NCBI GenBank assembly: GCA_015654675.1
Contig: JAATGM010000014.1
Location: 1-64,000, forward strand
Length of the DNA: 64,000 bases
Reading direction: 5' to 3'
Origin: Planctomycetota bacterium
Lineage (GTDB): Bacteria > Planctomycetota > Phycisphaerae > UBA1845 > UTPLA1
Shown in pieces: positions 4,077 through 10,076 of this stretch. Within the stretch, counting starts at the first letter, position 1. Each line of letters starts with the position of its first letter. Both the position numbers and the translations under genes were made by a program. The notes under the pieces were generated by a model. That model was not told the DNA's origin. It ran no database searches and saw only the letters and a list, made by a program, of their open reading frames with translations.

Positions 4077-4162
4077 GGGCGAGTGGCGCAATTGGCAGAC
4101 GCAGGGGACTTAAAATCCCCGGGGCGGTAACGCCTATGCGGGTTCAAGTCCCGCCTCGCCCA
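4077..4162 (+). tRNA. tRNA-Leu (anticodon TAA)
   Basis: Acceptor stem GGGCGAG (4077-4083) pairs with CTCGCCC (4155-4161), with discriminator A at 4162. The anticodon arm GGGGA-CTTAAAA-TCCCC places anticodon TAA at 4111-4113. The T arm is GCGGG-TTCAAGT-CCCGC. A long variable arm lies between, as expected for a class II tRNA such as Leu. The CCA end is not encoded (GTA follows). It lies between the phosphatase gene and the DinB-like gene on the same strand. Confidence 0.95.
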
Positions 4163-4805: not shown

Positions 4806-5129
4806 TCAAGAAGGGGGTTGACGGGACTCGAGCTCCGACCAGCGGCTATAGAGGGATTCAACCAGCCGCCGGGCGGTTTCAAGCTGTGCACAGAGTTCGC
4901 GAAGCTTGACGTGGTCTTTCAGCACGACCGGGTCATCAATGCGAGTCTGAAGCTCGCTGACTTCAGATTCAGCCGTGAGAATTCTTGACTCCATCTGCTC
5001 CCATTCCTGCCGCTCCGCCCAAGTGAGTTTGCGCTTCGCGGGGGTCCGGTCCGCGTCAGCATCGCCGCGTGTGCTGTTGTCCGCGGCTGCGGCAGCGGAT
5101 TTCGCCTTAGTGCGAGTCGCGGCGTCTTC
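4806..5129 (-). pseudogene. Severed C-terminal domain of the ABC-F ATPase
   Basis: After the stop TAA at 5130-5132, the same frame stays open for 107 codons to 4806. It encodes an Ala/Thr/Lys-rich linker and then KRKLTWAERQEWEQME..., a charged coiled coil ending in RWSELESRQPPS. This is the normal Uup/ABC-F C-terminal domain (linker, KLT/KLS-x(4-5)E, two antiparallel helices) in the expected place and frame. The stop therefore splits one ancestral gene (4806-6668, 620 codons). A Met at 4994 could in theory restart translation, but its upstream GGGAG is too close. Possible causes are a recent nonsense mutation, a sequencing error, or programmed readthrough. Confidence 0.75.
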
Positions 5130-6668
5130 TTAATCGCGAACCTCCAACTGGCGACGCCGATCGCGCTCCCATTGCGAAAGCGCGGCATACATCTTCGTAT
5201 TGCCTCGACCATCCAACGCGAGCAACTGTGTGGAGAGGCGATCAAGCAGGTAGCGATCATGCGTGACGAGCACCAGCGCCCCCGGAAATTCTTCGAGACT
5301 CTCCTCAAGCACGTCTAGCGTGGGAAGATCGAGATCGTTCGTCGGTTCGTCGAGAATCAGCACATCGGCCGGACGAAGCATGAGCCGCGCGATGAGCACG
5401 CGCGCCTGCTCGCCGCCCGAAAGACTCCCGACCGGAGTCGCGAGTTGCTCGACGCGGAATAAGAACCGGCGGGCCCACGACGAGACGTGCGTGGCACGCT
5501 CTCGGTACACCACGGTGTCCCCGCCTGCCGGCGCCAAAGCATCCCGCAACGACATGCGCTTATCGAGTTGTTCGCGGGCCTGGTCGAAGACGACGATGCG
5601 AAGATTCTCGGCCCGACGAACCTCGCCCGCGTCCGGTGTCAGATCACCGGACAGAATTCGCAAGAGCGTGGTCTTTCCGCTTCCGTTGAGGCCCAACAGG
5701 CCGAGCTTGTCGCCCGCGCCAAGCACAAGGTTGACATGTTCAAAAAGCAGCCGTCCGCCCAGTGATTTCGCGACGTCCTTCGTCTCGAGCAGTTTGACTG
5801 AGCGGCGTTCAGTCCCGGCGAAATCGATGGCGGCGGCGCCCTGATCGGCGTTGCGGGCCCGCACGTCGGCCAGCTCGCCCAGGAGGCGATGAGCCGCGTC
5901 GATGCGACCGCGCGCCTTGGTCGTGCGCGCCTTGGCGTTGCTGCCAAGCCATTCGACTTCCCGGCGGGCGCGGCCGGCGAGGGATATCTCACGGCTCGAC
6001 TGAGCGGCCAGAAACTCTTCGCGCTTCTCCACAAATTGGCTGTAAGCGCCGTCGACCTCGAGAAAGCCCTCAGGATAGGCGGAGCTCAGTTCTATCACGC
6101 GGCGAGTGACGTTTTCCAGAAACGCGCGATCGTGGCTGACCAGCAGGTATGCGAAACGCGCGTCGGCCAGAACTGACTCAAGCCACCAGATGCCTTCAAC
6201 ATCAAGGTGGTTGGTCGGTTCGTCGAGCAGCAGCAGGTCTGGATTGCGAATGAGCTGGCGGGCAATGGCGAGGCGTTTGCGCCAGCCACCGGAAAGGGCC
6301 TCGACTCTTTGTGACGGATCGGGAAAGCCGACCAACCCGAGCATGATCTTGGCCTGAGTCCAGCGGGCAACCTCGTCTAGGTGCAGCGAAGCCAGTGCAT
6401 CGAGAAGCGATTCTTCGACGGTTTGTTCAGGGGGCAGGTCGTCATCCTGTGCTACAAACCCAATGCGCAGTCCGCGGCGGGCCGACAACTCGCCCTCGTC
6501 GGCATGATCGAGGCCGGCCAGGATTCGCAGGAGTGTCGATTTACCCGCCCCGCTGCGGCCAATCAGGCCGGCGCGCTCGCCTTCAAAGAGCCCGAGCGTA
6601 ATCGCCTTGAAAAGCTGCCGCGCGTTCAGGGACTTGGTGAGATCGCGGCAGGTAAGCAATACTTCCAT
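5130..6668 (-). CDS. uup: ABC-F ATPase (Uup-like), truncated before its C-terminal domain
   Basis: Soluble protein of 512 residues with two ABC nucleotide-binding domains and no membrane segments. Domain 1 has Walker A GRSGAGKST (37-45), signature LSGGWRKR and Walker B LLLLDEPTNHLD. Domain 2 has Walker A GLNGSGKTT, signature LSGGEQARV and Walker B LILDEPTNDLD. The DEPTNHLD/DEPTNDLD boxes and the linker between domains identify the ABC-F class, which acts on ribosomes or DNA rather than in transport. Uup proteins are usually 600-640 residues; here a TAA at 5130-5132 removes the C-terminal coiled coil, which is still encoded just downstream. Both ATPase sites look intact. It is convergent with the DinB-like gene. 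Confidence 0.9.
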   Translation of the reverse strand: MEVLLTCRDLTKSLNARQLFKAITLGLFEGERAGLIGRSGAGKSTLLRILAGLDHADEGELSARRGLRIGFVAQDDDLPPEQTVEESLLDALASLHLDEVARWTQAKIMLGLVGFPDPSQRVEALSGGWRKRLAIARQLIRNPDLLLLDEPTNHLDVEGIWWLESVLADARFAYLLVSHDRAFLENVTRRVIELSSAYPEGFLEVDGAYSQFVEKREEFLAAQSSREISLAGRARREVEWLGSNAKARTTKARGRIDAAHRLLGELADVRARNADQGAAAIDFAGTERRSVKLLETKDVAKSLGGRLLFEHVNLVLGAGDKLGLLGLNGSGKTTLLRILSGDLTPDAGEVRRAENLRIVVFDQAREQLDKRMSLRDALAPAGGDTVVYRERATHVSSWARRFLFRVEQLATPVGSLSGGEQARVLIARLMLRPADVLILDEPTNDLDLPTLDVLEESLEEFPGALVLVTHDRYLLDRLSTQLLALDGRGNTKMYAALSQWERDRRRQLEVRD

Positions 6669-6803
6669 CAGGGTCCGATCTTGAGAGCGAAGAGATCAAA
6701 TCATGCGTCTCCTTCCGGATTGTAACGAGCGTCGGCAATCGAAGCACAAACGGACTTTCGCATCCCTGCGATCGCCCAGCGGTTCCGCAAAGATGGCAAT
6801 GCC

Positions 6804-9800
6804 CTACTTCGATTCCGGCGCCTTCAATCGCTCCCGCCAGCGGGCCGCGTCATCTACCCGCCCGGCGCCGTCGTAGCACTCGACGATCCCCGCGACCATG
6901 ACTTGCCGTTGTTTGTCCGTCACGGCCGGGTTCCCCGCCATCATTTCATAAGCCGCCAACCACAACCGCTCGGCCTCTTCGAATTTAGATTGCTTAGCGA
7001 CACACTCGGCCAGGCGGCTCGTCGCCGAAATCTGCGTCATGTGTTTCGGCGGCGTAACTTTCTGCAGAATGCGAAACGCTTCACGCAATGATGCCTCGGC
7101 TTCGGTATCGTGTCCCATACTGGATTGCAACTTCGCGAGGTCCCCCAGCGCGTCAGCCGTATCAAAGTGCTCATTGGGCGCGTGCAGCCGCCGCTGCATC
7201 TCAACGGCCGAGCGGTAAAGCCCTTCGCCTTCGTCATATTTCTTCTGAGCCGCAAGCGTCTTGGCCAGATTACACATCGACCGCGCGACATACGCATGAC
7301 CAGCCGGGTACCGCGCCTGCAGTGCCCGCAGGATCTCGCGATGCAACGGCTCCGCTTCGTCAAATCGCGACTGCCGACTCAGAACATTCGCAAGATTGTT
7401 TCTCGCCGCGGCAAGTCGAATATCATCGGCCGGCAACGACTTCTCAAGGATTCGAAGCGTCGCGCGATGCAGCTCCAACGCTTCGTCAAGTTTGTCCTGC
7501 TGCGTCAACATACCCGCCAGATTGTTCATCGCTTCAGCAGTGTCGAGATGTTCAGGCCCTAGTCGGGCTTGCCGGATATCAAGCACCTCGCGGTACATCG
7601 ACACCGCCTCCCCCAGCCGGTTTGTGCGAGCCAGCAACTCTGCCAGCGTGCCAAGATTCGCCGCCAGCGAACTCCATCCGCCTTCGGGATCCTTCCGTCG
7701 AATCGCCAGTGCCCGGCGAAGCAGCTCCTCGGCTTCGGTCTCCTGGTGAAGCTCCATCAGCACCTTTGCCAGTCTGACCATCGCAATCGCCGAATGCGGA
7801 TGCGATTCGCCCTGTACGGCCAGGTGAATTCGCAGCGATTCTCGCAGCAGTTGTTCAGCTTCGGAATCCTGGTCCCGCGCCGAAAGGACGTCGGCCAGGT
7901 TTCCAAGCGTCGTCGCGATGTGCGGGTGGTCGGGATCAAGTATCTGTCGCTGAGTGGCGAGTGCTTCGCGCAGGAGCGGCTCCGCCTCGTCAACCTGCTT
8001 CGTCTGAGTCAGCAGCATGCCCAGATTGTCCAGCGTCATCGCCACGTCCCGGTGAGCATTCCCGAATCGCGCCCGCTGAATCGTCAAGGCCTCGCGATAG
8101 TTCGATTCCGCCTTTTTATAGTCATGCGATTCGAACTGCGCATTGCCCAGGCTGTTCAGGAGTACCGCCAGCTCGGCGTTGTTCTTCTCCGGCAATGCTC
8201 GCGCTATGGCTACGGCTCGCTGCAGTTTTTCAATCGCTTCACCAACTCGGTGCAGGTCAAGCAGTGCCAAACCCCACGAGTTCCAGGCACCCGCCGCATC
8301 CAGACTGTCAGGCGCCGCCGACTCGTACAATCCCACGGCCTGCCGAAGCTGCGCCTCGGCCACGACGTATTCACCCAGCGATCGATAGGTCTGCCCAAGC
8401 GTCGTGCGGACGGCCGCCTCGACTCGCGGCGATTGCGCAGGACTACGAGCATCGAGTTGCTTTGCGGCCTCATCCAAAGCGGCTCGCACGGTGATGTTCC
8501 GATCGCGCGCATCGCGCGGGTTCGCCGCGCCCAGAATGGTCTGCAGGAATTCGTTAATCGCCGATTTTTCGGCCGCCTCCTGCCAGGCCTGCTCTGCGTT
8601 CTGGACGGCAATTCTACGCTGGTCCGCCTCGGCGAGACGGGCCTTTTCGGCACGCGATCGTTCGATGCTCTGCAATTGCTCCGCATGTCTGGCCCGCTCG
8701 CTCTCCGCCAGTGCCTGACGCCACGCGTAGACGCTGACGCCCAGCCCAGCGAATACCAGCAGAATGAATGCCGCGGCGATGCCCAATGGCACACGATGCC
8801 GCTGGAACTGCTTTCGAAGGACATAGCTGAACGAATCGCGCTTGGCCTCGATTGCGTCTCCAGAAAGATACCGATCGACATCACGCGCGAGTTCCCCCGC
8901 GCTCTGATATCGGCGCTCGCGCTCCTTCGCGAGGCACTTGAGCACGATAGTCTCAACTTCGTCGTCGAGTCCGGGGCGCAGACTGCGCGGACGAGCCGGC
9001 GGCGTCCGCGTGACGTGATCCATGACATCGCGCACATGTCCCAACACCGGATAGGGAAATCGCCCCGTCAGCATTTGGAACAGGACAACGCCCAGCGAAT
9101 AAACATCCGTTCGAATATCGATCAGATCGGTGCGCCCTTCGACCTGCTCCGGACTCGCCCACGGCAGCGACCCGATGAATTGCCCGGACTGCGTGTACTC
9201 AGCGGCCCCGCCAAGTCTCGCGGAGGCCGCGCCTCCCGCCTCAACAGGCAGCACGCCAGCCAGACTCGTCAGATCGCTGACCTTCGCCAGACCAAAATCC
9301 AGCACGTGCGGCTCACCGCGTGCGTCTACGCGGATGTTCGACGGCTTCAGGTCACGATGAATGATGCCGCGCAGATGGGCGGCGTGTACCGCCTCGCACA
9401 CCTTCTGAAACAGCGCTAAACCATCACGTACGTCGGCGACGCCGCCCGAGATCAACGGCTTTGAAGCCGCGCGAACCGCAGGCGTCGCCGCCCCGCCGTG
9501 CGAGCGCGTCGGCTCATCGTGTGCCCGTGAAGCCGGCGCCTCCCCTTTCGGACTCATCCGCTCGACATACTCGTCCAGCGGCGTGCCCTCGATGTAATTC
9601 ATGACAAAGTAACTGCCGCCGGCCGGCGTGACACCGCTGTCATGGATGGTCACGATGTTGGGATGGTTGAGCTGCGCAAGAATGCGGATCTCGCGCTCAA
9701 ATCGCAACTGGTCGATTGAGTCGCCGAGCGAATCGTCGCGCATCCACTTGATTGCGACCGTGCGGCCCGTCGATCGCTGCACCGCCTCGAACACGACGCC

Positions 9801-10076
9801 CTGCCCGCCGCGCCGAATCTCGCGAACAACCTCATAGCCGGCCAGTTGAAAACCAACCGGGCCCACCACCTTGGCACGCTGTCGGGCATTACTAATGAAC
9901 ACAGCCCTGCGTAGGGCTTCTGCCAATTCCGGCATCAGGTCCTCATTCCTCGAACCGATTTCGTCGATCGAGATTGCCTCGCCTTCGACTTCGCGAGAAA
10001 GGCATTCATTCACCACACGCTGAATGCGCTCTCGACGATTGGCGTCGGCTGGCAACGGCTGATGCGAGGATCCCAT
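6804..10076 (-). CDS. Membrane Ser/Thr protein kinase with C-terminal TPR array
   Basis: A 1090-residue Hanks-type kinase. The kinase domain (about 81-400) shows the glycine loop RRGGQGVVFE, VAIKWM (Lys), HRDLKPSN (about 240-247) and DFGLAK, plus an unusual insertion of about 50 residues (about 165-215) between the two lobes. A membrane helix follows at about 430-452, then a coiled coil (about 455-510) and roughly a dozen TPR units of the kinesin-light-chain type to the end. The cytoplasmic kinase would thus be tied to a large extracytoplasmic TPR region. It lies downstream of an ECF sigma gene and a STAS gene on the same strand, an arrangement of ECF sigma factors with kinases known in Planctomycetes. 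All catalytic residues are present. Confidence 0.93.
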   Translation of the reverse strand: MGSSHQPLPADANRRERIQRVVNECLSREVEGEAISIDEIGSRNEDLMPELAEALRRAVFISNARQRAKVVGPVGFQLAGYEVVREIRRGGQGVVFEAVQRSTGRTVAIKWMRDDSLGDSIDQLRFEREIRILAQLNHPNIVTIHDSGVTPAGGSYFVMNYIEGTPLDEYVERMSPKGEAPASRAHDEPTRSHGGAATPAVRAASKPLISGGVADVRDGLALFQKVCEAVHAAHLRGIIHRDLKPSNIRVDARGEPHVLDFGLAKVSDLTSLAGVLPVEAGGAASARLGGAAEYTQSGQFIGSLPWASPEQVEGRTDLIDIRTDVYSLGVVLFQMLTGRFPYPVLGHVRDVMDHVTRTPPARPRSLRPGLDDEVETIVLKCLAKERERRYQSAGELARDVDRYLSGDAIEAKRDSFSYVLRKQFQRHRVPLGIAAAFILLVFAGLGVSVYAWRQALAESERARHAEQLQSIERSRAEKARLAEADQRRIAVQNAEQAWQEAAEKSAINEFLQTILGAANPRDARDRNITVRAALDEAAKQLDARSPAQSPRVEAAVRTTLGQTYRSLGEYVVAEAQLRQAVGLYESAAPDSLDAAGAWNSWGLALLDLHRVGEAIEKLQRAVAIARALPEKNNAELAVLLNSLGNAQFESHDYKKAESNYREALTIQRARFGNAHRDVAMTLDNLGMLLTQTKQVDEAEPLLREALATQRQILDPDHPHIATTLGNLADVLSARDQDSEAEQLLRESLRIHLAVQGESHPHSAIAMVRLAKVLMELHQETEAEELLRRALAIRRKDPEGGWSSLAANLGTLAELLARTNRLGEAVSMYREVLDIRQARLGPEHLDTAEAMNNLAGMLTQQDKLDEALELHRATLRILEKSLPADDIRLAAARNNLANVLSRQSRFDEAEPLHREILRALQARYPAGHAYVARSMCNLAKTLAAQKKYDEGEGLYRSAVEMQRRLHAPNEHFDTADALGDLAKLQSSMGHDTEAEASLREAFRILQKVTPPKHMTQISATSRLAECVAKQSKFEEAERLWLAAYEMMAGNPAVTDKQRQVMVAGIVECYDGAGRVDDAARWRERLKAPESK

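Follow-up and report, generated by a model that had tools for sequence, protein, structure and literature searches.

An in-frame UAA between the ATPase part and the C-terminal domain of a Uup-like ABC-F gene, private to one planctomycetotal genome among those searched

Introduction

Uup is a bacterial ABC-F ATPase endowed with a DNA-binding coiled-coil C-terminal domain (model NF050005; domain structure PDB 2lw1). The gene analyzed here, located in a window of 64,000 nucleotides (positions 1 to 64,000 of contig JAATGM010000014.1, assembly GCA_015654675.1, from a Planctomycetota bacterium), resembles it in displaying two ABC domains, a linker and the C-terminal domain PF16326 in identical order, with the tail matching positions 537-635 of the Uup profile. 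It differs from Uup in that this domain is severed by a stop codon, that the ABC_tran_Xtn model falls below its cut-off, and that NF050005 gives 373.5 bits against a curated cut-off of 900, a threshold that an intact relative (G039, 420.9 bits) also misses. A second comparison is with EttA, solved as a 555-residue chain (4fin), since the 512-residue product looks like an ABC-F protein minus the C-terminal domain; the orthologues of the window gene, however, have that domain, and its absence here is a private loss. The third is with nonsense-truncated bacterial genes, characterized by one in-frame stop, an undecayed downstream remnant and intact relatives, from which no difference was found. 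A stop inside an ABC-F gene was not met in the titles and beginnings of abstracts surveyed, and printed cases may exist. The case is of little general significance.

Layout of the gene and its ATPase body

The features of the locus are as follows.

5130..6668, minus strand: open reading frame of an ABC-F type ATPase, 512 residues, with two ABC_tran domains, start ATG at 6668-6666 and stop TAA
5130..5132, minus strand: the in-frame TAA, within the variable linker that joins the second ATPase domain to the C-terminal one
4809..5129, minus strand: open frame past the TAA, 107 codons, encoding linker and C-terminal domain
4827..5030, minus strand: ABC_tran_CTD (PF16326), the coiled-coil C-terminal domain as in Uup, residues 34-101 of the tail
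4806..4808, minus strand: TGA closing the tail frame, near the ends of the orthologues

The initial annotation had described a 512-residue ATPase interrupted by TAA and continued for 107 codons without frameshift. The renewed analysis agrees: apart from the TAA, a single frame with zero frameshifts runs from the ATG at 6668 to the TGA at 4806-4808, and the start at 6668 is that of the orthologues.

In the 512-residue part, PF00005 was matched over two stretches (Pfam, E 1.3e-56). The translation contains GRSGAGKS, LSGGW, LLLLDEPTNHLD and SHDR in the first domain and GLNGSGKTT, LSGGE, LILDEPTNDLD and THDR in the second, which we take to be the usual ATPase motifs. With two ABC_tran domains in one chain and no membrane-domain family among the best 25 of 35 Pfam matches, the open reading frame has the ABC-F layout. 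No NCBIfam ABC-F model reached its cut-off among the matches listed, the best E-value being that of an EttA model (381.3 bits, cut-off 806.75); in the PDB the product is matched best by EttA 4fin (E 1.9e-87); and ABC_tran_Xtn (PF12848), the model of the Arm/linker between the ATPase domains, gives 15.6 bits where 25.9 are required. PF16326, which in Uup belongs to the protein, occurs downstream of the TAA only. No decay was seen in the ATPase body, so that the gene as a whole is no clear pseudogene.

The tail beyond the stop

A run of 107 open codons says little in itself, since the window has 47 other open reading frames of at least 250 codons, many of them chance frames that overlap, and for 7 of these the next in-frame stop is likewise over 100 codons away. 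What is decisive is homology. PF16326 is recognized in the tail with 59.2 bits (E 4.6e-16), the NCBIfam Uup profile with E 2.4e-8 and the solved Uup domain 2lw1, weakly, with E 0.0021, in line with the Uup-type linker and coiled coil noted earlier; moreover, the tail can be aligned to the C-terminal ends of 57 distinct orthologues. Judged by this homology, it is to be regarded as real coding sequence. It is also undecayed: all 15 columns conserved in at least 85% of the other orthologues are kept, and neither a second stop nor a frameshift was found within it. The earlier proposal that both parts of the gene look under selection holds for the history of the lineage and cannot be demonstrated for the time since the stop arose.

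Privacy of the stop among relatives

A first search covered 61 genomes, namely the window's own and 60 relatives. Clear orthologues (52-66% identity) were found in 11 relatives. Each of the 11 stays open across the stop position and, counted from where the match begins, has 599-630 residues. A profile built from these 11 sequences was then run on genomes of the order and of the phylum (E <= 1e-120), yielding matches in 34 of the 114 genomes of the order and in 141 of 392 phylum genomes drawn evenly from a larger group. Together these sets hold 174 distinct loci, the window's genome being the sole one matched in both. An internal stop was flagged in only one locus, and it is the TAA of the window; stops flagged in G370, G275 and G402, candidates for relatives sharing it, turned out to be normal last stops.

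Direct inspection of 60 loci of relatives revealed one open frame from near the start to the domain in 58 (57 distinct and one duplicate), a figure to be read with the fact that the locus filter itself required such a frame. Judged by match ranges, the two loci that did not pass are probably L071 and L072, both with cut matches. Comparison with related genomes, suggested by the initial annotation, places the normal end of the homologues beyond the stop position. In the alignment, this position falls in the linker that follows the second ATPase domain and is the segment most variable in length and sequence. No congener of the organism was found in the searches, and a contig scan for a close relative, which may pass over records belonging to the window's genome, returned just five distant loci.

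The end of the domain is not reached in six matches (G065, G110, G235, G304, G438 and G500). Natural domain loss was considered for G304 and rejected, the contig stopping at that point. The relative G235 belongs to a more distant branch, and its domain is disconnected by a linker frameshift: locus L152 (G235:C1:2939696-2942209) has an open frame of 570 residues, with the C-terminal domain in another frame after the shift. In the seven other members of its genus that were matched, the match is full-length, and the disconnection in G235 may be either a sequence error or a second, independent case affecting this domain.

Evolutionary rate and age of the stop

Compared with G039, the nearest orthologue, the ATPase part is 66% identical and the C-terminal domain 49%; the domain is in general the faster evolving of the two. 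An excess of change in the tail along the branch of the window was looked for and rejected. On a fixed tree the ratio of branch lengths (C-terminal domain over ATPase part) is 1.52, rank 42 of 58 when counted from the slowest, against a median of 1.12 and quartiles of 0.77-1.55, and by mean identity the deficit of the domain is the 10th of 58 from the largest; the window is thus on the fast side, inside the range and no outlier. Its ATPase branch is itself long (48th of 58 from the shortest), and a general relaxation of the gene on this branch is possible.

A rough and indirect bound on the age of the stop was obtained from a neutral simulation (1000 runs) in which random changes were introduced into the present tail and indels were ignored. 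The 15 conserved residues and the open frame were both kept in 15.3% of runs at 0.05 substitutions per site, in 4.0% at 0.08 and in 1.6% at 0.10; for comparison, the nearest orthologue is at a synonymous distance of ~1.34. About 0.08 neutral substitutions per site would thus make an intact tail unlikely. Either the stop is recent, that is, young relative to the branch to the nearest orthologue, or the cell continues to use the tail, or the organism lacks the stop, which would be an assembly error.

Distribution of the gene and other ABC-F genes of the genome

At E <= 1e-120 the gene is absent from all 16 listed genomes of the same family. On the ATPase tree it lies closest to the orthologues of G039, from another family of the order, and G194, from another class of the phylum (SH-aLRT supports of 93.7 and 99.3), with 64-66% identity in the ATPase part. 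This patchy distribution suggests an accessory gene that has probably moved laterally. Directly upstream, a gene for a protein kinase with a long TPR array (1090 residues) lies at 6804-10076 on the minus strand. Among three neighbours compared, none was matched in the 10-kb stretch of G039, and in G194 the kinase gene alone was matched, twice, at 28-29% identity over the kinase domain. A tRNA-Leu gene with anticodon TAA lies at 4077-4162 on the plus strand, ~650 bases past the end of the tail. Its last 22 bases are not repeated with fewer than five mismatches elsewhere in the window, as might mark an insertion, and recur at one place with five.

The genome has two other ABC-F genes. One, at C19, encodes 639 residues and carries PF16326 (38.6 bits); the other, at C52, encodes 561 residues without a PF16326 match and looks EttA-like by length and layout. 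With one protein bearing the domain and one devoid of it, loss of the domain in the truncated gene may be tolerated. Its absence from same-family genomes and the presence of a second domain-bearing ABC-F also make the gene look dispensable.

Possible origins of the in-frame stop

The reading we favour, with a probability of roughly 0.7, is an ordinary, recent and lineage-private nonsense mutation, which would have struck the interdomain linker of an accessory Uup-like ABC-F ATPase gene. Translation would proceed from the ATG at 6668 to the UAA at 5130 and give a 512-residue protein that keeps both ATPase domains and their motifs and lacks the C-terminal coiled coil, while the 107 downstream codons would most likely be a young untranslated remnant whose decay is still to come. 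This supposes that the stop is present in the living organism and that the short form is made and is at least partly functional without its domain. The orthologues open through the stop position and the privacy of the TAA are what such a mutation leaves. The undecayed tail is equally expected from continued use of the tail or from an assembly error.

An error of assembly or base calling, in which the genome has a sense codon and encodes an ordinary full-length ABC-F of ~620 residues, is the strongest competitor, with about one chance in five. Like recent mutation, which the initial annotation had also put forward, it accommodates the private stop and the tail without decay, and the two cannot be separated on sequence alone; the state of the assembly (62 contigs, 96% completeness) speaks for an error. 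Against it, there is no homopolymer run at the stop site, and where coverage is good an assembly seldom carries a single-base substitution error. The third possibility raised at the outset, that programmed or leaky readthrough at the UAA yields small amounts of a longer form including the C-terminal domain, would likewise explain the open tail with its conserved positions, but found no support and is improbable. Stop and downstream frame are not conserved jointly in relatives, the other 173 loci being without a flagged internal stop, and UAA is generally the least leaky stop codon. Folding of the 100 nt that follow the stop is somewhat better than that of shuffled sequences, of which 8 in 200 equal or surpass it, a weak signal (z -1.97). 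Nor was a decoder found: a search of the genome, which is 96% complete, gave 46 tRNAs, of which ARAGORN read 45 in loci and the remaining one in the window; no UAA-reading anticodon was among them, and the anticodon TAA of the window's tRNA-Leu decodes UUA, not the stop. Reassignment of the stop or a suppressor tRNA is rejected on the same count, as far as testable. It is more doubtful still that a leaky UAA yields the short ABC-F and a minor coiled-coil form in a ratio reporting termination efficiency; if true, leakiness could be a feedback because ABC-F proteins act on the ribosome.

Finally, the gene might be split, with the tail translated alone from an internal start such as the ATG at 4994-4992 (62 residues) and acting in trans. 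A GGGAG stretch lies just upstream of this codon, but its methionine is an ordinary residue of the domain, found at the same place in 9 of 11 homologues of a small alignment, the product would be deprived of the first part of the domain, and no homologue split likewise was seen; we consider this very unlikely. Under the favoured reading of a recent nonsense mutation, the 512-residue product is best annotated as a truncated ABC-F, with mention of the remnant.

Upstream mini-ORF

The sequence AAGGAG, a good Shine-Dalgarno stretch, is followed by ATG ATT TGA (6696-6704, minus strand), a mini-ORF of two codons that shares the frame of the ATPase and precedes its start by 36 nt. No Shine-Dalgarno stretch of this kind lies ahead of the ATG at 6668. 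The mini-ORF could be a leader for re-initiation, or due to chance.
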